Assembly (NCBI GenBank): GCA_026417625.1
Contig: JAOACW010000005.1
Location: 1-64,000, forward strand
DNA length: 64,000 nt
Source of the DNA: Syntrophales bacterium
GTDB lineage: Bacteria; Desulfobacterota; Syntrophia; Syntrophales; UBA8958
Direction of reading: 5' to 3'
Positions within the stretch are counted from its first letter, which is position 1. Each line of letters starts with the position of its first letter. Below the pieces are notes generated by a model that worked only from the letters and a program-made list of their open reading frames with translations, was not told the DNA's origin and searched no databases. Made by a program: the position numbers and the translations under genes. This document shows, piece by piece, positions 23,063 to 34,366 of this stretch.

Positions 23063-25354
23063 GTGTACGCCGTTTTAAGATTCATTTCCTTAAAAACGTG
23101 GTTGAAGGGAAAACTAGGGCAACTCACGAAGGTTTCACCCACAAAGATAACTGTTCTCATTATAATTATTGCCATCATTGCCTTTTTTATAGATCCACCG
23201 TTTATGAGATTTATGGAATTGAAATCCCTTGATTTGCGGCTAGTGTCCCGGGGTAGGCTACCCACAACTGATGTTGTTGTTATCGCAGCTATAGATGAAA
23301 AAAGTTTAGGTGAAATAGGACGCTGGCCCTGGTCGCGGAAGGTTATTGCGAAGTTGGTTGAAAAATTGAAGTCTGATGGGGCAAAGGCAATTGCATTTGA
23401 TATAGTTTTTTCCGAACCGGAAGAGAATCCTTCTATGAAGGTACTACAGGGACTCTCGGAAGAGCTCGGAGGTTTGGATTATGCTCTGAAAGACCGTTTA
23501 TATAAGGTAATAAAAGCGAAGCGTGATGACCTTAGTCCTGATAAGGTTTTGGCTAAAGCTATCGAGAGGACTGGAAATGTTACTTTGGGGTACTTTTTTT
23601 ATACCACAGCGAGAGAAGTGGCCCATCTGAAACCCGAGGAGATTGATATGGCAAGGGAGCTCATCAGTAACTCTCGGTATCCCATGGTCCAATCCAAAGG
23701 ACAGGTTGATGAAAGGAATTTGATCCACGCTTATGCGGCAGTGGCGAACATAAAGGAACTCTCAGAAGTCGCCGTTAACAGTGGCTACTTTAATGCATAC
23801 CCTGATTCTGATGGTGTTATTAGATGGTCCCCTCTAGTGGTAAAGTTTGGTGATGGTTACTACTATTCCCTGGCAATGGCGGCGTTGTTGCAATTTGCTG
23901 GTATGCCTATTGCGGGTGTTCGTCTAGCGGAATTCGGGGTTGAATCCATAATAGTGGAGAATATCTCAATTCCTGTGGATGAATCGGGAAGGATACTCAT
24001 AAACTACCGTGGACCGGCAAAGACGTTCCCCCATTACTCAATAACGGATATACTTCACAACCGTCTTCCGCCCGATACTTTAAGGGATAAGATTGTCATT
24101 GTAGGAGCGACAGCCACCGGTATTTATGATCTCCGGGTGACTCCTTATAGTAGCGTGTATCCCGGGGTGGAAATTCATGCAAACGTCATTGATAACATTC
24201 TGGTGGGCGATTTTCTGAAGCGTACCAATTTTACCATTTTTCTAGACATGTGCGCTATTATCGTTTTGGGGATGATTGTAGGCTTAACAATACCACGTTT
24301 AAAAGCAGTTTTGAGTGTTATTGTGACTTTGTCTTTTTTGATAACTTTTATCTTTGTGAACACACTTCTCCTCGCTAAGTATCGTATTTGGTTGAACATG
24401 GTTTACCCAGTTGCCACAATAATTGTTATTTACACATTCATCACAGTTTATCGTTACGTAACAGAGGAGATGGAAAAGAAAAGAATTCGCAGTGCATTCC
24501 AGTATTACCTTACGCCTGCTGTAATTAACGAGATACTCCAAGATCCCTCAAAGTTGAAGCTGGGAGGCGATAAAAAAGAACTTACTGTGATGTTTTCCGA
24601 TGTGCGCGGATTTACAACTATCTCAGAAAGCCTATCTCCTGAGGATCTAGTCAGTCTTCTGAATGAATACCTTTCGGAAATGACCAGGATTGTCTTCAAA
24701 TATGACGGTCTACTGGACAAGTATATTGGAGATGCCATAATGGCTGTGTTTGGTGCTCCCATTGACCAGCACGACCATGCTTTAAGAGCTTGTAAAACAG
24801 CTCTGGATATGATGGAAAAATTGAAGGCTCTTCAGGATAAGTGGGAGCAAGAGGGAAGACCCCGACTGGATATTGGAATTGGTATTAACTCCGGAGATAT
24901 GGTGGTAGGTAATATGGGTTCTGATATCCGGTTTGACTACACTGTGATGGGGGATAACGTAAATCTTGCTTCTCGTTTGGAAGGTATCAATAAGGAATAT
25001 GGAACGCATATCGTGATAAGTGAGTATACGTATGAGAGAGTAAAAGATCATATGTTCTGCCGGGAGCTGGATGCAGTGCGGGTTAAAGGCAAGAAAATGC
25101 CTGTAAAGATTTATGAGCTCCTGTGTGAGAGAGAAAATAAGGATGCACATGAAAAGTACGTTAAGGTTTTTGAGGAAGCTTTGGATGCTTACAGGAGTTG
25201 CCAGTGGGATCGAGCTATTGCCCTTTTCGAAAAGGTGATTCAGATCAAGGGGGAAGATCCTCCATCGGAAGTTTATATCAAACGCTGTTTAGATTTGAAG
25301 GAGAATCCACCGGACCAGCCGTGGGATGGTGTCTATACAATGACGAAGAAATGA
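23063..25354 (+). CDS. CHASE2-domain membrane adenylate cyclase
   Basis: The 763-residue protein has one N-terminal membrane helix (about 28-47), an extracytoplasmic CHASE2 sensor domain (about 50-395, with DVVVIAAIDEKSLGEIGRWPW and VSRG..PGVEIHANVIDNIL features), three further helices (about 395-470) and a class III cyclase domain (about 500-690). Metal aspartates (Asp513 in FSDVRGFT and IGDAIMAVFG), adenine-specifying Lys and Asp, and VNLASR are intact. The GTG start at 23063 has only a weak AGAGG overlapping it, so the N-terminus is uncertain. The racemase gene begins about 20 bp after its stop. Confidence 0.93.
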   Translation: MYAVLRFISLKTWLKGKLGQLTKVSPTKITVLIIIIAIIAFFIDPPFMRFMELKSLDLRLVSRGRLPTTDVVVIAAIDEKSLGEIGRWPWSRKVIAKLVEKLKSDGAKAIAFDIVFSEPEENPSMKVLQGLSEELGGLDYALKDRLYKVIKAKRDDLSPDKVLAKAIERTGNVTLGYFFYTTAREVAHLKPEEIDMARELISNSRYPMVQSKGQVDERNLIHAYAAVANIKELSEVAVNSGYFNAYPDSDGVIRWSPLVVKFGDGYYYSLAMAALLQFAGMPIAGVRLAEFGVESIIVENISIPVDESGRILINYRGPAKTFPHYSITDILHNRLPPDTLRDKIVIVGATATGIYDLRVTPYSSVYPGVEIHANVIDNILVGDFLKRTNFTIFLDMCAIIVLGMIVGLTIPRLKAVLSVIVTLSFLITFIFVNTLLLAKYRIWLNMVYPVATIIVIYTFITVYRYVTEEMEKKRIRSAFQYYLTPAVINEILQDPSKLKLGGDKKELTVMFSDVRGFTTISESLSPEDLVSLLNEYLSEMTRIVFKYDGLLDKYIGDAIMAVFGAPIDQHDHALRACKTALDMMEKLKALQDKWEQEGRPRLDIGIGINSGDMVVGNMGSDIRFDYTVMGDNVNLASRLEGINKEYGTHIVISEYTYERVKDHMFCRELDAVRVKGKKMPVKIYELLCERENKDAHEKYVKVFEEALDAYRSCQWDRAIALFEKVIQIKGEDPPSEVYIKRCLDLKENPPDQPWDGVYTMTKK

Positions 25355-25373
25355 CAAAAAAGGGGTTTTGCTC

Positions 25374-27323
25374 TTGCAGAGCACGCAGAGTTACAGAAGT
25401 TGGGTAGAAGTAGATCTCGATAATTTTGCAAACAACTGGAAAGAAATAAGAAGGATCGTTGGACCTGAAGTTAAGGTTCTTCAGGTGGTCAAGGCTGATG
25501 CGTATGGTCATGGATCGATTGAAATTGCAAAGGTGGCCCTTGAGAATGGAGCATACTGTTTAGGGGTCGCGAATGCCGACGAGGGTGTGCAACTCCGTAT
25601 TAGTGGAATTAGTGCTCCGATCCTCATCCTCAGTCCTTCTCCTGGGGGAGAGATTCGAGAGATAATTAAGTACAATCTGACGCCGTCAATTTCTGATATT
25701 TCATTCGCTAGAGATCTGCAAAAGGCATGTGCGAAAGCGGGGATGTGTATTCCTGTTCATGTGGAAGTTGATACAGGTATGGGGAGGGGGGGTATCCTAT
25801 ATAGTGAGGCTCTTAAGGTTATTAGAGAGATTGCAAGTATGCCGAATTTAACCCTGGAGGGAATATTCACCCATTTATCCTGTAGTGAGATTCGGGCGGA
25901 GTACAATGTCTATCAGTGGGAATTGTTCAGGCGTGTTCTCAAAGAGCTCGAGGCAAATAATATTAATGTTCCGATAAAGCATATGTCGAACAGTGGGGCT
26001 ATTCTAAACTATCCTGAGTTTAATCTAGACATGGTACGACCCGGTTTAATGTCCTATGGAATATATCCTTCCCTGGAGACAAGAGAGCGTGCCCAGCTCC
26101 ACCCCGTTATGGTTTTTAAAACGCGGATCGTTCTCATAAAGGATTTTCCGAAAGGTTACAGTATTGGTTACAACAGAACATATATAACAGAGAAGCCCTC
26201 CCGAATAGCAACGATTCCTGTGGGTTATGGTGATGGATATGGTGTGATTCTTTCAAATGCAGGTGAAGTGCTCATAAGGGGGAAAAGAGCCCCTGTGGTT
26301 GGAAGAGTCTCAATGGATATGTGCACAGTTGACGTATCCCACATACCTGGTTGTGCAGTGGGTGACGAGGTAGTCTTGATGGGATCGCAGGGTGATGAAA
26401 CTATCTCTGCGTACGATATAGCTAACAGGGTAAAAACCATAACCTATGAAATACTGTGCACTCTTGGTAAGAGGGCACCTCGCGTTTTTATACAAAGGGG
26501 TAAAACTAATGCAGTGCTTCCCCGGTTAAGGAGGATTTATGTGCCAGATGAAGAGAGATCCGTTGCTAGAATAAACAGTATAATCCGTATGTGTCTCCAG
26601 GCTAGAGTACGTAATGAGGAGTTAGGTGACGCCATATACTATGAAATGTTGGAGACGCTATTTGGTAAAGAGGATCGCAGTTTGGAACTGAGAGAAAATT
26701 TTCGCTATTATATTAAAGTCTGCGACCTTATTGATGAGGACGACCCCTTAGCGAGAGGGGGTTATCTCCAGTTCACAACGATAATTGAATATCGAAAAGT
26801 TTTGAGAAACGAGAGGTTCATCATAGGTTGTGCTTTAAATAGAGAGCAGCTTGCCAGTTTCTTTGAAGATCCCCGTTGTGAGTATCGATGGCTTCTAGAT
26901 GAACGTGATGTAGGGGTAAACGTAAAGAATAATTTTCGCGTTTCATCCGTAATCGTTGACAATATAGCAGTGCCAATTATTAGGAAATCATGTACCGATC
27001 GTGGTTTGGAAATCGAATGTGGAGCGGAGGAGCTGAAGAACAAAATTAATCAACTTGTAAAATTCTCTATTGAAATAGTTGCGTTAAAGTCAAAGAGCGA
27101 CAATATGTTTTCTGTGTATCTGGTGTACCCGACGAGAGGTTTGGAAATTGTTTTTGATCATGAGGGATCGAGTCTGCGCAATGTACGGGAGGTGAGTTTC
27201 TTTGCGGGTAAACGCCCATATCCGGAGGTGACGAAGTTGCCAAATAAATCCATAAGGATATACATACCAGATGATAACTGGATTTTCCCCAACAGTGGTG
27301 TGACTTTTGTATGGGAGGTGTAA
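25374..27323 (+). CDS. alr: Alanine racemase with ~260-residue C-terminal extension
   Basis: Residues 1 to about 385 form a complete PLP alanine racemase: Lys in VVKADAYGHG (near 40), catalytic Tyr in SIGYNRTY (near 266), GYGDGYG and GRVSMDMCTVD. It makes D-Ala from L-Ala. Ordinary racemases end here (360-390 residues), but this frame continues for about 260 more residues (nt about 26540-27323) with a helical part and a beta-rich part ending VTFVWEV; I recognise no domain. TTG 25374 lies 8 bp after AGGGG and is preferred over TTG 25368. The first ligase gene begins 12 bp later. Confidence 0.9.
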   Translation: MQSTQSYRSWVEVDLDNFANNWKEIRRIVGPEVKVLQVVKADAYGHGSIEIAKVALENGAYCLGVANADEGVQLRISGISAPILILSPSPGGEIREIIKYNLTPSISDISFARDLQKACAKAGMCIPVHVEVDTGMGRGGILYSEALKVIREIASMPNLTLEGIFTHLSCSEIRAEYNVYQWELFRRVLKELEANNINVPIKHMSNSGAILNYPEFNLDMVRPGLMSYGIYPSLETRERAQLHPVMVFKTRIVLIKDFPKGYSIGYNRTYITEKPSRIATIPVGYGDGYGVILSNAGEVLIRGKRAPVVGRVSMDMCTVDVSHIPGCAVGDEVVLMGSQGDETISAYDIANRVKTITYEILCTLGKRAPRVFIQRGKTNAVLPRLRRIYVPDEERSVARINSIIRMCLQARVRNEELGDAIYYEMLETLFGKEDRSLELRENFRYYIKVCDLIDEDDPLARGGYLQFTTIIEYRKVLRNERFIIGCALNREQLASFFEDPRCEYRWLLDERDVGVNVKNNFRVSSVIVDNIAVPIIRKSCTDRGLEIECGAEELKNKINQLVKFSIEIVALKSKSDNMFSVYLVYPTRGLEIVFDHEGSSLRNVREVSFFAGKRPYPEVTKLPNKSIRIYIPDDNWIFPNSGVTFVWEV

Positions 27324-27335
27324 GGGTATAAGAGA

Positions 27336-28391
27336 ATGAAGAGATTGCGAGTGGGTATAATACTGGGAGGTATGTCTTCAGAAAGAGAGGTTTCGTTGAA
27401 CAGTGGTAGAAACGTTTTCGACAATATGGATAGGGAGAAGTACGATCCCATTCCTGTATTTATGGATATGAAGGGCAAATTCTGGGTTCTTCCCTGGCAG
27501 TTGATTTCTCAGAACACAACGACGGACATTTCAGAGAGATTGGCAAAGGAGGCACGACCTATAGCTTACGAAGATCTCAAAGAAGAAGTGGATTTTGCCT
27601 TTTTATGTCTCCATGGAAAGTATGGAGATGACGGATGCATTCAAGGATTGCTTGAACTTCTCGGTATTCCTTATACTGGACCTGGGATTTTAGCTTCCGC
27701 ATTGGGGATGGACAAACATATTCAGCAAAGTATCCTCAAGTTTTCTGGTGTTGATGTTCCGGAGAGTCTTCTCATTGAGGAACGTGAATGGAGGGAGAAT
27801 TCCGAAAGAGTTAAAAAGGCACTTTTGGATAAGTTTTCTCTGCCTTTTTTCGTAAAACCGACCAGAGAGGGTTCCAGTGTAGGGGTTTCTGCTGTGCGAA
27901 AGGAAGATGACATATCACCCGCACTGGAGGCCGCGTTCAAGTGGGATTCGAGAATCCTGGCAGAAGAATATCTAGACGGAATAGAATTTTCTTGCATTAT
28001 CCTAGAAGAAGGTGACCAACTAAGGGTTCTCGATGTAACGGAAATTCATCCCCAGAGCGAATTTTACACTTACGACGACAAGTATATGCCGGGTAGGTGT
28101 AGGAAGTTCACGCCTCCCAAAAATATACCTAGGGAAGTGACAGAGAGAATAAAGGAAGAAGCAATAAAGGCGTACAGAGCCCTGGGATTTAGATCATATG
28201 GCAGAATTGATGGTTTTGTGTTAAAGGATGGGCGCATTTTAATTACGGACCCCAACTCATCATCTGGAATGGCACCTTCTTCCTTTTTCTTTGAGCAGGC
28301 AGCTAATGCAGGAATGTTACCTTCTATGATTATTAGTGCGCTTATTGAAAATTCATTGGCTATACACAGAGAGAAAAGGGGTCCTTTATAA
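27336..28391 (+). CDS. D-alanine-D-alanine ligase paralogue 1 (variant metal site)
   Basis: The 351-residue ATP-grasp ligase of the Ddl family has GGMSSEREVSLNSG with Glu16, the loop KPTREGSSVG with Ser180 (E. coli Ser150) and omega-loop DDKY with Tyr250 (E. coli Tyr216). The C-terminal metal/substrate motif is unusual: ITDPNSSSGMAP, where standard enzymes have an E-x-N-T-x-P-G-M pattern, so the Mg-binding Glu is Asp305. It may ligate D-Ala to D-Ala or to a related residue. AAGGG precedes the ATG. It lies between the racemase and an outer-membrane protein gene. Confidence 0.88.
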   Translation: MKRLRVGIILGGMSSEREVSLNSGRNVFDNMDREKYDPIPVFMDMKGKFWVLPWQLISQNTTTDISERLAKEARPIAYEDLKEEVDFAFLCLHGKYGDDGCIQGLLELLGIPYTGPGILASALGMDKHIQQSILKFSGVDVPESLLIEEREWRENSERVKKALLDKFSLPFFVKPTREGSSVGVSAVRKEDDISPALEAAFKWDSRILAEEYLDGIEFSCIILEEGDQLRVLDVTEIHPQSEFYTYDDKYMPGRCRKFTPPKNIPREVTERIKEEAIKAYRALGFRSYGRIDGFVLKDGRILITDPNSSSGMAPSSFFFEQAANAGMLPSMIISALIENSLAIHREKRGPL

Positions 28392-28411
28392 GAAAATTTG
28401 GAGGATTGAAG

Positions 28412-29188
28412 ATGAAAAAAAGACAAAAAGCTATCATGTGGTTATGTTTGGTTGTATCTTTTTTTGTCGTTCCGTATGCTGACGCGTTTGAAATAGGCGT
28501 TCGGGGTTATCTCTGGTTGCCCGATTTGAAAACAGCGGATGTTAAAACCATTCAAAACGGCATAGAAGGATCGTATATGGATGCTAAGGAGCTTTTAGGA
28601 CTCGGCAAAAAGATGAACTTTGCAGGTGAGATTTACGGCGGGATTGGGAGGCACCATGGTAGCATTATGTACACAACTGCTGGATTTTCGGATAACACTG
28701 TTCTCACGGCAGATGTAGTTTTCAATGGGGTGAAATTCAGTAAAAGTACGAATGTGAAGAGTGATTATTCGTATGACATGCTCGATCTTAAATATCAGTA
28801 CGATATTATCAACATGGAGAATCTACTAGCTGGTTTTTCTTTAGGGCCGATTTTGCAAGGAAAGTTCGTTTCCGGTGAATTGAAATTGAATTCGGCGACA
28901 ACGGGTGATCAGAGAAGAACTTACAACTCTGTTTTTCCCATGGTGGGTGTTGGTGCTCATATTGGTTTGGTTGCCAATTTGCTGGAGGCAAGGGTTCAGG
29001 TCACAGGTGGAGGTTACGGGAGTGATAATTATTCACTTGAGGGGCTCGCAGATGTGTCGGTTTCTCCTTTACCTTTTGTTGATATAAATGTTGGCTATAG
29101 AATAGTGAAAATTTTCGTGGACAAGAATGACTTCAAAATGGATCAGTTTTTCAGTGGGCCATACTTGGGATTAACAGTTGGGTTTTAA
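28412..29188 (+). CDS. Predicted outer-membrane beta-barrel protein
   Basis: The 258-residue product has a signal peptide (basic MKKRQK, hydrophobic core, PYADA cleavage), then alternating beta-strand pattern and a C-terminal GLTVGF ending in Phe, typical of outer-membrane barrels. The frame extends to a TTG at 28406, but ATG 28412 has GGAGG 7 bp upstream. I do not recognise a subfamily. It sits between two D-Ala ligase paralogues, 20 bp after the first and 16 bp before the second, so it belongs to their transcription unit. Confidence 0.8.
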   Translation: MKKRQKAIMWLCLVVSFFVVPYADAFEIGVRGYLWLPDLKTADVKTIQNGIEGSYMDAKELLGLGKKMNFAGEIYGGIGRHHGSIMYTTAGFSDNTVLTADVVFNGVKFSKSTNVKSDYSYDMLDLKYQYDIINMENLLAGFSLGPILQGKFVSGELKLNSATTGDQRRTYNSVFPMVGVGAHIGLVANLLEARVQVTGGGYGSDNYSLEGLADVSVSPLPFVDINVGYRIVKIFVDKNDFKMDQFFSGPYLGLTVGF

Positions 29189-29204: not shown

Positions 29205-30272
29205 ATGGTGGAGAAAGAGAGAAAAAAACTTGTTGTCGGTGTTATTATGGGGGGACTCTCCTCGGAGAAAGAGGTGTCACTAGAAAGTGGCAGGAATATT
29301 TACAGCAAAATGGATCGTAGTTTATTTGAGCCTATACCAATTTTTATGGATAGCAAAGCACGGCTCTGGGAGATCCCCCTTAAGCTTTTGATGCGTAACT
29401 GCACTAAAGATATCGAGGAAGATTTGGAAACGGAGGCAAAAAGGATTCCCTATGAAGCCCTAAAGGATAGGGTGGACATCGTTTATTTTGGTCTTCACGG
29501 TAAATACGGTGAAGATGGGTGCATGCAGGGGCTTTTGGAACTTTTGGGTATTCCATATACTGGGTCAGGTGTGCTGTCATCTGCTATCGGTATGGATAAG
29601 TACATGACAAGGAAAATCCTAACCATGAGAGGTATTGATGTACCAAAATCCACGATCGTAGAGAGGAAGAAGTGGGAGAGTAGTGAGAAGGAGATGATTT
29701 TGAAACTCATTGAAGAGGAAATTAAGTACCCCTGCGTTGTTAAGCCGACCCGAGAAGGCTGTAGTACAGCAGTGAAAAAAGTTGTGTCATCAGAGGGGAT
29801 ACCCTCGGCTCTTGAAGGAGCTTTTGAGTGGGACAATATTGCATTGGTAGAGGAGTTTATCGAGGGCATAGAGGTGACCTGCGGAGTTTTAGGGCATGAT
29901 CCACCTATGGCCCTGATTCCCTCTGAGACGATCCCGACTGAAGATATTCTGACCCTGGAAGATAAATTTCTCTACGGTCAAGGGGAAAACAAAACTCCTG
30001 CTCGTGTACCTGAGGAAGTTCTGAAGAGGATTCAGGACACCGCCGTGGCAACTTTTCAAGCTCTTGATCTTAAGTGTTACGCGCGAATTGATATGTTTGT
30101 TCGCAAAGATGGCCGAGTCGCCGTACTTGAGGCCAACACGTTGCCGGGGATGACTCCGGCGACGGTTTTGTTTCATCAAGCTGCTGCTTTGGGGATCAGT
30201 CAAACTGATCTCATCACTAGGGTAATAGAGGCTGCTTTAGATGCTCATGCAAAGAAAAAAGGACCTCTATGA
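29205..30272 (+). CDS. D-alanine-D-alanine ligase paralogue 2 (variant specificity residues)
   Basis: The 355-residue Ddl-family ATP-grasp enzyme is preceded by AAAGGG 8 bp before ATG 29205; the frame extends to a TTG inside the previous gene, which I reject. Metal motif LEANTLPGMTP (Glu309, Asn311) is standard. Two substrate-site positions differ: PTREGCSTAV has Cys186 where E. coli DdlB has Ser150, and omega-loop EDKF has Phe255 where DdlB has Tyr216. Phe at that site is known from depsipeptide ligases, so D-Ala-D-lactate or another product is possible. Like paralogue 1 it ends in GPL. Confidence 0.88.
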   Translation: MVEKERKKLVVGVIMGGLSSEKEVSLESGRNIYSKMDRSLFEPIPIFMDSKARLWEIPLKLLMRNCTKDIEEDLETEAKRIPYEALKDRVDIVYFGLHGKYGEDGCMQGLLELLGIPYTGSGVLSSAIGMDKYMTRKILTMRGIDVPKSTIVERKKWESSEKEMILKLIEEEIKYPCVVKPTREGCSTAVKKVVSSEGIPSALEGAFEWDNIALVEEFIEGIEVTCGVLGHDPPMALIPSETIPTEDILTLEDKFLYGQGENKTPARVPEEVLKRIQDTAVATFQALDLKCYARIDMFVRKDGRVAVLEANTLPGMTPATVLFHQAAALGISQTDLITRVIEAALDAHAKKKGPL

Positions 30273-30351: not shown

Positions 30352-31155
30352 ATGAGGTTGTTTGTTTTCTTGTCAAGACCCTTTGTTACTGTGGGAAGCG
30401 CGGCGATCGAATGGGTAAACAGTTTAGGTGTGGCGGGTATTTTTCTTGTAATGGCCTTCGTAAAGATTTTCCGTCCTAAACAGTTCAGCAAAATTGTTCA
30501 CCAGATATATATAATCGGCGCCAGATCTACTATGATTATTATGCTTGTAGGATTGTTCACGGGAATGGTTTTAGGATTGCAATCGTACCATGCCCTTGTA
30601 AAGGTTGGAGCTCAAGGGGCTCTCGGTACGTTGGTTGCCCTCTCACTAGTAAGGGAGCTCGGACCGGTTCTTGCCGCTATAATGATCACGGCTAGAGCGG
30701 GGTCGGCAATGACTGCAGAAATAGGTATACAGCGTATCTCAGAGCAGATTGATGCTCTTTTAACAATGCGTATAGATCCTCTAGGTTTTTTGGTGAGTCC
30801 CAGATTGGCAGCCTCTATAGTATGTTTTCCCATATTAACTGCGGTATTTGATCTAATAGGGATTATGGGTGGTTTCATATCGGGAGTTTTGATTTTGGGG
30901 GCAAATGCGGGGACGTATTTTTATCGGGTTCAAACTAGTACGGATCTTAAGGATGTTACGGACGGTTTTATAAAGGCGTTAGTTTTTGCAATAATTGTGG
31001 CAACTGTATGTTGTTATCAGGGTTACTATGTGCACCAGAGAAAGGACAGTAAAGGGGCTAAGGCGGTTGGCATTGCTACGACTTCGGCTGTGGTTATATC
31101 CTGTGTGCTCATTCTTATCGCTGATTATGTGATTACTTCGCTTCTTCTGAAATAG
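30352..31155 (+). CDS. mlaE: Mla phospholipid transport permease MlaE
   Basis: The 267-residue permease has four to five membrane helices and the MlaE signatures GLFTGMVLGLQSYH and LVRELGPVLAAIMITARAGSAMTAEIG. It is the inner-membrane component of the Mla system, which moves phospholipids between the membranes. GAGG lies 6 bp before the ATG. The gene begins 80 bp after the second ligase and 11 bp before mlaF, heading mlaEFDCA. Confidence 0.96.
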   Translation: MRLFVFLSRPFVTVGSAAIEWVNSLGVAGIFLVMAFVKIFRPKQFSKIVHQIYIIGARSTMIIMLVGLFTGMVLGLQSYHALVKVGAQGALGTLVALSLVRELGPVLAAIMITARAGSAMTAEIGIQRISEQIDALLTMRIDPLGFLVSPRLAASIVCFPILTAVFDLIGIMGGFISGVLILGANAGTYFYRVQTSTDLKDVTDGFIKALVFAIIVATVCCYQGYYVHQRKDSKGAKAVGIATTSAVVISCVLILIADYVITSLLLK

Positions 31156-31166
31156 GGGTTGTTTTT

Positions 31167-32408
31167 ATGGTAACGCCTCTCATTGAATTCAGGGATGTCA
31201 CGAAGCGGTTTGGCGATAAGGTTGTGCTTGATAGAGTGAATTTAAAAATATACGAGGGAGAAGTGACGACAATTATTGGGCTAAGCGGTGCCGGGAAGAG
31301 TGTTCTGCTTAAACACATAATCGGTCTTCTTAAACCTGACGAAGGGATGATACTTTTTCGGGGCAAACCTTTGAACGAAATGGGAAGAAGTGAAGTTATT
31401 AATAGTTTTGGAAAAATCAGTTACATGTTTCAGGGTAATGCCCTTTTCGACTCATTGACGGTTTATGAGAACATTGCGTTACCACTTAGGGAAACCACAA
31501 AGCTTAGTAAAGCAGAAATTGACAAACGAGTTATGCGAAGGGTGGAACAGATGGAGCTTATGGATGCTGTGTACAAGTATCCATCTGAACTCTCAGGAGG
31601 TATGCAGAAGAGAGTAGCCCTCGCCAGGGCTTTGGTAACTGATCCTAATATCGTGTTATTCGACGAGCCCACGACGGGGCAGGATCCAGTAAGAAAGAAT
31701 GCTATACTGACGATGATCGCTCAGTACCAGAAGAGGTTTGGTTTCACAGCCGTTCTTGTAAGTCACGATATACCGGATGTTTACTTTATATCGAATAGGA
31801 TTCTCGCCCTGTATGATGGGCAGATCGTATTTCAAGGTACACCAGAGGAGCTCGAGAATTTTGATCACCCATTTTCCGATGAGGTGATTCGTAGCCTTGA
31901 AGAATTACAGAAAGAACTTACGGGATTATACAGTCTTCGACAATTCAAAATGCAGTATCTTTCCCAACTGGCAAGTGGTGAGAGAAAAGGTGTTTACTCA
32001 ATTATAGTATTTGAATTTTCCGGTTTGGATGAGATATCTGAAGTCGCAGATCAAGAAGCTGTACATACATTATTGAACCAGTTTGGAAAACAGATAGGAG
32101 GTTTTTTTGGTCCTCTCGCTGGTTTCTCAGCCAGGTATGGAAAGGACACCTATGTTACGGCCCTTCCTTATGCCACGTTCGAGGAGACCAGAATGGCTGT
32201 AGAGGATCTAATAACTGAACTTGAAAAAAGAGATATAGGTCCCTTTACTATTGAGCGGATCTCTGACCTAAAAAAGATTGTAGGGGTAGAATTTTTTGTC
32301 GGTATAGCCCATGGGGATCCTCTTACTGACTTAACATCGGTGATCCACAGTGCAAGGTCCCAGAGGGAGTTAAAAGCTGTTTTTCGGTGTAATGTGCGGG
32401 GGTGCTAA
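31167..32408 (+). CDS. mlaF: Mla transport ATPase MlaF with degenerate GGDEF-like C-terminal domain
   Basis: The 413-residue product has an MlaF-type ATPase in residues 1-245 (Walker A GLSGAGKS 38-45, signature LSGGMQKR, Walker B VLFDEPTTGQDP, H-loop His200). Normal MlaF ends near 270. The extra 140 residues (about 276-400) look like a degraded GGDEF fold: a YSIIVFEFSGL strand, RYGKDTYVTALP (323-334) at the RYGGDEF position, and FFVGIA at the usual I/V-GIA strand. The acidic catalytic residues are missing, so it cannot make c-di-GMP; it may bind a ligand or regulate the ATPase. The stop abuts mlaD. Confidence 0.9.
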   Translation: MVTPLIEFRDVTKRFGDKVVLDRVNLKIYEGEVTTIIGLSGAGKSVLLKHIIGLLKPDEGMILFRGKPLNEMGRSEVINSFGKISYMFQGNALFDSLTVYENIALPLRETTKLSKAEIDKRVMRRVEQMELMDAVYKYPSELSGGMQKRVALARALVTDPNIVLFDEPTTGQDPVRKNAILTMIAQYQKRFGFTAVLVSHDIPDVYFISNRILALYDGQIVFQGTPEELENFDHPFSDEVIRSLEELQKELTGLYSLRQFKMQYLSQLASGERKGVYSIIVFEFSGLDEISEVADQEAVHTLLNQFGKQIGGFFGPLAGFSARYGKDTYVTALPYATFEETRMAVEDLITELEKRDIGPFTIERISDLKKIVGVEFFVGIAHGDPLTDLTSVIHSARSQRELKAVFRCNVRGC

Positions 32409-32864
32409 ATGCAAAGGTATAGGATAGAGATGATTGTTGGCATCTTTATAGTGTTCGGCATTATTTGTATAGGATATATGACAGTGAAACTTGGAGATGT
32501 TTCCTTTATTAGTGACAATTATTATCCGCTGTACGCCAAATTTACCTCTGTTACTGGTTTGAGGGTGGGAAGTCCAGTACGTATGCTAGGTATAGACATA
32601 GGCAGAGTGGAAAGCCTCAAAATGGATCAGGAAAATCAGCAGGCCGTTGTGGAGATACGTATTCAGAAGGATATAAAGGTATATGATGATGCTGTGGCAT
32701 CCATTAAAACTGAAGGACTTATCGGAGATAAATACTTAAGCATTGATCCTGGAGGTTCGGGTAATGTTCTTTTGCCGGGAAGTTATATAACACAAACGCA
32801 ACCTGCGGTAGATATAGCAGATTTGATAGGCAAATATGCTTTTGGGGAGTTAAGAAAAGATTAA
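32409..32864 (+). CDS. mlaD: Mla substrate-binding MCE-domain protein MlaD
   Basis: The 151-residue protein has one N-terminal membrane helix (about 7-27) and a single MCE domain (SVTGLRVGSPVRMLGIDIGRVESL, KTEGLIGDKYLSIDPG). It forms the hexameric lipid-binding ring that docks on MlaE. The ATG follows the mlaF stop without a gap, so translation is coupled. The length is typical for the short MlaD form. Confidence 0.95.
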   Translation: MQRYRIEMIVGIFIVFGIICIGYMTVKLGDVSFISDNYYPLYAKFTSVTGLRVGSPVRMLGIDIGRVESLKMDQENQQAVVEIRIQKDIKVYDDAVASIKTEGLIGDKYLSIDPGGSGNVLLPGSYITQTQPAVDIADLIGKYAFGELRKD

Positions 32865-32879
32865 AAGGGGTCTTTTCAC

Positions 32880-33485
32880 ATGATGGTTAGAGCTTTTAGC
32901 TTTATTTTTTCATTTGTCTTATTATTTTTTTTGCCCTTTTCGGCATATTGCGGAGATCCAATGGATTTCGTGCAAAAGAATGTCAATCGAGCACTTGATG
33001 TTGTTCGTGATCCTACGTTGAAGGGGGAAGTTGCAAAAAAGAAGAAGCGCGATAAACTTCATGCCATTTACGAAGACGCTTTTGATAAAGAGGAATTTTC
33101 TCGGAGAACGCTGGGAAAGGATTGGAGCAGGTTTAACGAGGATCAACGTAAGCGGTTTGTTGAACTTTATCAGAAACTGTTGGAAAATGTTTACTCTGAT
33201 AAAATTCTCTCTTATGAATACAAAGATGAGAAAGTGATGTTCGATCGGGAAATCATTCATTCTCCTAATTTTGCAGAAGTGTATACTAGGGTTATAACAC
33301 CTTCGAAGGTTATTCCCGTCTCCTACCGGTTAATCCAGAAGGGGGGTAGATGGAAGATATATGATGTGACTATCGAGAATGTAAGTCTTATTCAGAATTA
33401 CAAAACACAGTTTCGCGAGCTTCTCGCGAAGAATACCCCTGACCAATTTCTCAATATACTAGAGGAAAAGGTCAAGGGTAAGTGA
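32880..33485 (+). CDS. mlaC: Periplasmic phospholipid carrier MlaC
   Basis: The 201-residue protein has a signal peptide (cleavage near SAYCG) and the MlaC/Ttg2D fold: FSRRTLGKDWSRFNEDQRKRFVELYQKLLENVY and YRLIQKGGRWKIYDVTIENVSLI. It ferries phospholipid across the periplasm between MlaA and MlaFEDB. AAAGGGG lies ahead of the ATG pair (32880 or 32883). The 3' end overlaps mlaA by 4 bp. Confidence 0.95.
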   Translation: MMVRAFSFIFSFVLLFFLPFSAYCGDPMDFVQKNVNRALDVVRDPTLKGEVAKKKKRDKLHAIYEDAFDKEEFSRRTLGKDWSRFNEDQRKRFVELYQKLLENVYSDKILSYEYKDEKVMFDREIIHSPNFAEVYTRVITPSKVIPVSYRLIQKGGRWKIYDVTIENVSLIQNYKTQFRELLAKNTPDQFLNILEEKVKGK

Positions 33486-34366
33486 GATATATGTTCATAT
33501 TGAATTGGACTACCCGGCTTGTTTTTTTAACGGTTCTAGTTGTGTCATTTATTTTTTCTGGTGCGTTTTTTATTAAAATTCACCCTTGCGCGTGTGCAGA
33601 AGAAAAGGTTTCCCATAATGAACGATCCTTACATCAAGTACCTGAGGAACCTCCCTCCATCGTGAAACAGATAGAGAATGCGAGAGATATAGACACTGAG
33701 GAAGAAGAACGTATAGAAATCCCTGATCCATTGGAACCGTTCAACCGTGTGATGTTTACCTTTAACGATAAACTGTATTTCTTTGTCCTTAAGCCCATTG
33801 CCCAAGGTTATAGTAAGGTTTTGCCGGAGAAAGTGCGTGTCTGTGTGAAAAATTTCTTTTCTAATATTTTGTTTCCTGTGCGTTTAGTCAATTGTTTTTT
33901 ACAAGGAAATGCCGAAGGTGTTGCAGCGGAACTGGCGAGATTTACTGCAAATACAGTATTTGGGTTGGGGGGGGTTATTGACTTTGCCTCTAGGGAAGAC
34001 ATAAATATACCCAAGTGCGATGAGGATTTTGGTCAAACATTAGGATCCTATGGTCTGGGACCTGGTTTTTATATAAACTGGCCCTTCTTAGGTCCTTCGA
34101 GCCCCCGAGATACTGTAGGGTGGATTGGTGATTCTCTCCTTTATCCTTTTCAGTACGTAAAACCGTGGTATGTGTCGATAACGACAAAGGTATACGACAA
34201 GGTAAACGACACCTCACTTAGAATTGGTGATTATGAAGCTCTCAAAGAGGCAGCTGTGGATCCTTATGTAGCTGTTCGAGATGCTTACGCCCAGTACCGG
34301 TACCAAAAAATAAAGGAGAAAATCATAAAGAACCAAATGCAAATAAGGGAAGGTTATGCTCCTTGA
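33482..34366 (+). CDS. mlaA: Outer-membrane lipid-asymmetry protein MlaA (VacJ)
   Basis: The product is 294 residues from GTG 33482 (GTGA overlap with mlaC; ATG 33491 is an alternative). The VacJ core is clear: DPLEPFNRVMFTFNDKLYFF, FGLGGVIDFASR, and GPFLGPSSPRD-like GLGPGFYINWPFLGPSSPRD. MlaA removes stray phospholipid from the outer leaflet. The N-terminus has a hydrophobic segment but no clean lipobox; PCACAEE looks more like a signal peptidase I site. A G8 tract within the coding sequence (33967-33974) could slip (see findings). Confidence 0.94.
   Translation: MRYMFILNWTTRLVFLTVLVVSFIFSGAFFIKIHPCACAEEKVSHNERSLHQVPEEPPSIVKQIENARDIDTEEEERIEIPDPLEPFNRVMFTFNDKLYFFVLKPIAQGYSKVLPEKVRVCVKNFFSNILFPVRLVNCFLQGNAEGVAAELARFTANTVFGLGGVIDFASREDINIPKCDEDFGQTLGSYGLGPGFYINWPFLGPSSPRDTVGWIGDSLLYPFQYVKPWYVSITTKVYDKVNDTSLRIGDYEALKEAAVDPYVAVRDAYAQYRYQKIKEKIIKNQMQIREGYAP

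Follow-up and report, generated by a model that had tools for sequence, protein, structure and literature searches.

Two adjacent paralogues of the D-alanine-D-alanine ligase gene (ddl), here called A and B, on balance encode the two halves of one obligate, probably heterodimeric D-Ala-D-Ala ligase. They reside in a Syntrophales genome, within the 64,000 nucleotides analysed in this work, referred to below as the window. Residue patterns, status as sole Ddl, co-occurrence, tandem order, gene fusion and the presence of Pro275 in A upon loss of B are all observed; joint inheritance, fusion and opposite residue changes, taken together, point to one two-part enzyme. The relevant features of the window are the following.

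25368..27323, plus strand: alanine racemase, 651 aa, the expected source of D-Ala, which adjoins A in many relatives (profiles, relatives).
27336..28391, plus strand: ddl paralogue A, 351 aa, partner of B (translation, profiles, alignment).
28248..28265, plus strand: altered metal/substrate loop of A, codons Asp305 to Ser310, with E270D and P275S in E. coli numbering (computed).
28406..29188, plus strand: ORF of 260 aa between A and B, with no Pfam match (ORF list, profiles, relatives).
29205..30272, plus strand: ddl paralogue B, 355 aa (stop-free ORF, family profiles, DdlB alignment).
29760..29762, plus strand: Cys186 codon of B, at the Ser150 site of E. coli DdlB (computed from the ORF; BLASTP alignment).
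29967..29969, plus strand: Phe255 codon of B, at the Tyr216 site of E. coli DdlB (computed from the ORF; BLASTP alignment).

Both proteins exceed the cut-off of the Ddl model TIGR01205 (245.65 bits), B scoring 268.6 and A 282.3 bits, and both carry above cut-off the N- and C-terminal Pfam domains of the family (Dala_Dala_lig_N, Dala_Dala_lig_C). They are 46% identical to each other. The first-pass annotation had assigned to B a phenylalanine at the Tyr216 site and a cysteine at the Ser150 site, and both assignments were borne out. In the BLASTP alignment to E. coli K-12 DdlB (NC_000913.3), EDKFL of B pairs with EAKYL, and Phe255, not a tyrosine, fills the Tyr216 site; PTREGCS pairs with PSREGSS, and Cys186 falls at Ser150. 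The same sites were assigned by phmmer, run on PDB Ddl chains, and by MAFFT. The metal motif of B had been described as intact, and in the alignment it is, E309-A-N311 and TLPGM being unchanged. Arg255, Asp257, Glu270, Asn272, Lys97, Lys144 and Lys215 (E. coli numbering) are kept as well.

Residues were counted among relatives after removing duplicates with identical last 200 residues, the canonical rows (L127-L155 and L246-L248; the L130 row was re-entered as the L157 halves), and two stray pieces classed C (the L231 fragment, and L239); other fragments were retained, and gaps excluded. Phe216 is found in all the 130 readable B-type rows (133 rows, gaps set aside), and Cys150 in 130 of 132, the other two (L183 and L184) carrying serine. 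Glu270 and Asn272 occur in 129/129 rows, as does Pro275 (129/129). Lys97, Lys144, Lys215, Arg255, Asp257, Glu270 and Asn272 are present in all readable B rows, one row having an X at position 97. The constancy of Phe and Cys is far beyond chance, and the two residues are a family-wide mark of B, not a lone oddity.

The partner of B is no ordinary Ddl either: Asp305 and Ser310, previously overlooked, make A equally unusual. The A protein of the window retains Ser180 and Tyr250 at the Ser150 and Tyr216 sites; Glu270 and Pro275 are replaced by Asp305 and Ser310, the loop reading NSSSGM in place of NTLPGM. In the 125 A rows paired to a B, Ser150 is invariant (125/125), and so is Tyr216 (124/124 readable). 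Pro275 is found in none of the 125; Asp270 is found in 122, and Glu270 accompanied by His272 in the remaining three. Glu15, Lys97, Ser150, Tyr216, Arg255 and Asp257 are present in all readable A rows. A lacks His63, Asn272 and Gly276 at three loci (L119, L121 and L125), and Lys144 at another (L238). A canonical Ddl was searched for in the genomes of the first three loci, and not found; there, given the losses in A, B would have to supply the normal dipeptide, and is plausibly the likelier catalyst.

The genome to which the window belongs (1.79 Mb, 32 contigs) is 97.8% complete. Besides A and B, a PF07478 search retrieved five weaker matches; judging from size, score and partial coverage, these are presumably ATP-grasp enzymes resembling carbamoyl-phosphate synthase or biotin carboxylase. 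The dcw cluster resides on another contig and includes murF, murC, murB and ftsA, and the same search found no ddl match there. No Ddl other than A and B was thus found in the genome, and the pair is for this reason expected to make D-Ala-D-Ala. The MurF of the genome is of the ordinary kind (TIGR01143). A search for 2-hydroxyacid dehydrogenases gave one full-length match, best fitted by the phosphoglycerate dehydrogenase model (SerA-like), which fell below the whole-protein cut-off because only its 174-aa matched stretch had been scanned; the other matches were one adenosylhomocysteinase-like protein and two sub-threshold hits. By this family search no VanH-type D-lactate dehydrogenase was found in the 97.8% complete genome, and the VanX family (PF01427) gave zero matches. 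B scored 159.7 against the NCBIfam VanA cut-off of 775, 224.2 against 495 for VanG and 192.1 against 550 for the D_ala_D_lac model, and the cut-offs of the NCBIfam D-Ser ligase models were not reached. The dehydrogenase being SerA-like only, the VanX family unmatched and MurF ordinary, D-Ala-D-Ala is, on sequence grounds, quite likely the product, and a likelier one than a depsipeptide.

The surroundings of the pair are in part conserved. The C-terminal 275 aa or so of the racemase (past residue 375) have no Pfam match; alignments to its relatives extend over about 650 aa, with 57 to 69% identity. Upstream of alr-A-B resides a gene combining CHASE2 and adenylate/guanylate cyclase domains (23063-25354), retained alongside in many relatives. 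The 260-aa ORF occupies the same place in only part of the Syntrophales relatives, and is an inconstant neighbour of the pair. The gene 3' of B is mlaE-like. The mla genes following B (30352-34366) are about 30 to 50% like those found there in most relatives, and up to 76% like those of locus L074; the mla set next to B seems to differ between lineages.

The distribution of the pair was monitored in 60 Syntrophales genomes, including that of the window; the order was inferred from named relatives, and counts were made by hand on matches to E ~2e-9. A was found in 45 genomes, B in 44, both in 42, neither in 13. Both members are present in 42 of the 47 Syntrophales carriers, and in 7/7 carriers from Chloroflexota. 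Only B was found in G009 and G012, which are 78 and 88% complete, and only A in G024, G042 and G053, which are between 84 and 95% complete and split into 200 to 420 contigs; the five assemblies are all drafts, incomplete or fragmented. Of the 13 genomes lacking A and B, 9 carry a canonical-type Ddl sharing 28 to 37% identity with B, and none is found among the matches listed for the 47 carriers. Syntrophales genomes host either A/B or a canonical Ddl. G044 has the pair, and G028 and G055, which share its genus code, have a canonical Ddl. Among 148 sampled genomes of the phylum, pair-type matches come from the window itself only; the other genomes carry a single canonical-type match (three in G346), or none. 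Of 100 genomes from one class of Chloroflexota, 7 have both A and B, 88 have one different Ddl (identity no higher than 42%), and 5 have none; A alone or B alone was not found in these 100 genomes.

The nearest named relatives of B are MAGs of Syntrophales/Deltaproteobacteria. Of 78 named loci examined, nine outside Syntrophales have both genes adjacent, and in 9/9 A directly precedes B on one strand. Tandem A-B genes have been identified in Chloroflexota of the Anaerolineales (L108, L109 and L114), Patescibacteria (L116 and L124), Dojkabacteria (L119), Methylomirabilota (L117), Melainabacteria (L121), and at the unclassified locus L125. A MurF-Alr fusion adjoins the pair at L114; at L123 (Ardenticatenales) such a fusion adjoins B, and A is about 19 kb off. 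Mur ligases are close by at L119, L124 and L125, and FtsQ at L116. In 13 genomes checked, no Ddl match of ordinary strength occurs besides the pair or the fusion described below, with the exceptions of G061 and G069. G061 has, along with the pair, an extra match (L239, G061:C4:419800-421700), a Ddl-like ATP-grasp protein devoid of the Ddl motifs of the Ser150/Tyr216 region; G069 hosts two A-B pairs, on contigs C76 and C108.

In Cytophagales the two proteins are fused. At locus L130 an A-type and a B-type half make up a single ORF of 896 aa, and matches covering at least 870 of the 896 residues in one frame were found in 87 of 194 genomes of the order, a few being flagged with one in-frame stop; 9 of the 194 gave no match to the fusion. 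In all the fusions examined residue by residue (54/54), the N-terminal half is of A type, the C-terminal half of B type. Nine reduced genomes (G094, G110, G139, G194, G207, G219, G237, G246 and G254) have separate A and B genes, either unlinked or located on different contigs, and set hundreds of kilobases apart on one contig in G110, G194, G207 and G254; A and B are kept in genomes of about 1 Mb. In 14 A rows the B half is only a remnant. These carry Pro275 (14/14) along with Asp270 (14/14), and Leu282 in 11/14, at a position occupied by Phe in 118/125 paired A. The A-alone proteins of L177, L179, L181 and L182 are 550 to 645 aa long and retain at their C-terminus what is left of the B half; they are the fusion caught after losing its second catalytic domain. 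No second Ddl was seen in the 8 remnant-B genomes searched. The A-alone rows form one clade (8 rows in one tree, 6 in the other), and a single event is therefore probable. G166, which showed B only, with Ser150, suggested that B regains Ser150 whenever A is lost; this notion was rejected on account of the sister genome G237, which has the same Ser150 and yet carries A; Cys150 of B is thus not strictly tied to A.

In a quick tree built on all columns A (with A-alone nested within it), B and canonical Ddl are separate groups, the support of B being 99. Once the diagnostic columns were left out, A was still one clade (99/95), and canonical Ddl joined inside B with weak support; monophyly of B is allowed (p-AU 0.29). 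The simplest reading is one duplication, followed by the joint spread of A and B.

The predicted structure of B (mean pLDDT 92.1, pTM 0.90) has the Ddl fold. Its fold search retrieved DdlA (3i12, Z 43.5), VanA (1e4e, 41.5), LmDdl2 (1ehi, 40.6) and VanG (4fu0, 40.1), and for the B half of the fusion LmDdl2 is tied as nearest structure (Z 38.5, versus 38.4 for Thermus Ddl). Since Ddl, LmDdl2 and Van ligases score nearly alike, fold searches are silent on substrate. The natural fusion L166 (897 aa) was modelled by AlphaFold2 from an alignment of 51 of the 52 listed fusions, omitting L220, whose ORF starts at the stretch end, and reached a pLDDT of 86.6 and a pTM of 0.85. For two modules of equal size in free orientation a pTM near 0.5 is expected, as an estimate, and a fixed packing of the halves is hence predicted. 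One method, judged by pTM alone, suggests that the relative placement of the A and B halves is confidently predicted. The search for A-B covariation (54 and 39 pairs) gave no clear signal.

From these data we infer that A and B form a physical heterodimer, depend on each other and yield D-Ala-D-Ala; any assignment of the chemistry to one half or the other is likewise putative. The heterodimer would be laid out like the usual Ddl homodimer, and in Cytophagales its halves are one chain. The neighbouring alanine racemase would provide D-Ala to the complex, which would spend ATP on coupling it with another D-amino acid, most probably D-Ala; the dipeptide would be passed to MurF. B would contribute the intact ATP/Mg and loop residues and the Phe/Cys acceptor pocket, which may be tuned for work alongside A. 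A would contribute the usual Ser/Tyr acceptor residues, its altered loop plausibly making it rely on B.

The residues of B could be read in a different manner. In the accessible part of PMC7691350, Ser150 and Tyr216 are conserved in Ddl making D-Ala-D-Ala only, LmDdl2 has Ala and Phe in their place, and a DdlB changed at both sites acquires weak D-Ala-D-Lac activity; Phe versus Tyr divides the two activities in lactic acid bacteria, according to the available portion of PMC5996685. The link of Phe to D-Ala-D-lactate synthesis, proposed in the first-pass annotation, agrees with both sources, and on the LmDdl2 and DdlB data an altered acceptor pocket in B is fairly assumed; the model of B has the Ddl fold. 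The further step, that B makes a depsipeptide such as D-Ala-D-Lac, could count on the constant Phe and Cys, which tell of a retained function, and on the tie of the fusion's B half with LmDdl2. We hold it unlikely. The data lend no support to a depsipeptide ligase working next to an ordinary Ddl: A is atypical, the pair is the sole Ddl found, and the Van cut-offs are missed, that of the D-Ala-D-Lac model included (192 bits versus 550); the sole full-length 2-hydroxyacid dehydrogenase found is SerA-like, and no VanX family member was found. Pro275 is absent from A in all paired rows, at L119, L121 and L125 the normal dipeptide would fall to B, and rival products would not predict fusion and near-strict co-occurrence. 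A simple Van-type system was rejected, as cut-offs were missed and the VanX family and a VanH-type enzyme were not found. That A and B are independent ligases, forming different dipeptides (for example D-Ala-D-Ala, and D-Ala-D-Ser or one ending in some other D-amino acid) for two uses in the wall and no complex, is quite unlikely as well. Nearly all catalytic residues are found in both proteins, and the acceptor-side residues differ, as such a scheme would have it; the Cytophagales fusion, the tandem order and Pro275 in B-less A argue for dependence, and the NCBIfam D-Ser cut-offs were missed.

Other readings concern the share of work between the halves. One of them, most likely A, could be a regulatory or scaffolding pseudo-enzyme controlling B, for example as a sensor of ATP or D-Ala; this would be one particular form of the two-part enzyme, distinct only in the division of labour. 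A deviates at metal-loop positions in all paired rows, and further losses hit His63, Asn272 and Gly276 (L119, L121, L125) or Lys144 (L238). Such a role is nonetheless very unlikely, because six residues, from Glu15 to Asp257, are kept in every readable A row, and an A-only descendant is the sole Ddl seen in 8 genomes; A is thus generally no decayed enzyme. E. coli carries two Ddl, DdlA and DdlB, and an ordinary duplication could likewise have left a redundant pair here, drifting neutrally with no special link. This is hardly credible: the residue sets are opposite and near-invariant in more than 120 rows each, and they persist across phyla as well as in genomes of some 1 Mb; the fusion also speaks against it, and redundancy was rejected because the A and B sets are too constant.

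The two-part enzyme is thus the explanation that we prefer. Textbooks present Ddl as the product of one gene, and it is the target of the antibiotic D-cycloserine. The A-B pair is new as a variant of this known enzyme. In the openly accessible literature, at the level of titles and abstract openings, no two-part or fused bacterial Ddl is described; the accessible part of a paper on vancomycin and thermophiles (PMC4814524) has nothing on the group carrying A/B. Going by the names in the records, the proposed two-part form is present in no fewer than six phyla, and in one order of Bacteroidota it is fused. More tentatively, it is possible that several phyla swapped the one-gene Ddl for an obligate heterodimer of co-transferred paralogues, that the paired halves are singly inactive (A lacking the Pro275 loop, B lacking Ser150/Tyr216), that independence is gained only by reverting one's own lesion, as in the A-alone proteins of Cytophagales, and that the fused Ddl of plant chloroplasts is the same enzyme. 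A two-part Ddl, for its part, would change the annotation of Ddl genes and the use of F/Y-type vancomycin rules on sequences. As lesions are naturally separated between A and B, parts of the active site could be studied apart. The spread is known mostly from uncultured genomes; the idea can nonetheless be tested, through the fusions of Cytophagales and through a Syntrophales genome that is closed.

Known Ddl are single proteins, and crystals show dimers of one kind, according to the accessible part of PMC6899670. The pair resembles canonical Ddl (TIGR01205, PF01820/PF07478; E. coli DdlB) in fold, in the ATP/Mg residues of B, in alr adjacency and in being the sole Ddl. It differs in consisting of two diverged, nearly always co-occurring paralogues rather than one protein, in the lack of Ser150/Tyr216 in B, and in the lack of Pro275, and mostly of Glu270, in A. 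Compared to Y-type, D-Ala-D-Ala-only Ddl, B departs with Cys and Phe; Ser150 and Tyr216 of A fit, but Pro275 is absent. LmDdl2, the F-type D-Ala-D-Lac ligase of Leuconostoc (PDB 1ehi), shares with B the fold and Phe at the Tyr216 site; at the Ser150 site it is described as having Ala, whereas B has Cys (130/132) or Ser (2), and, unlike LmDdl2, B has a partner, in a genome where no VanH-type D-lactate dehydrogenase was found. VanA, VanG and VanC ligases belong to the same superfamily and fold as B (VanA 1e4e, VanG 4fu0); B misses the NCBIfam Van models widely, and its genome has no VanX-family match. The chloroplast DDL of plants (Physcomitrium, Arabidopsis) is described as two fused Ddl domains. 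By this description the plant fusion may resemble that of Cytophagales. In the accessible part of PMC9434261, the Fibrobacteres-Chlorobi-Bacteroidetes group is given as nearest to the Ddl of moss, and the moss pentapeptide precursors match those of typical Gram-negative bacteria.
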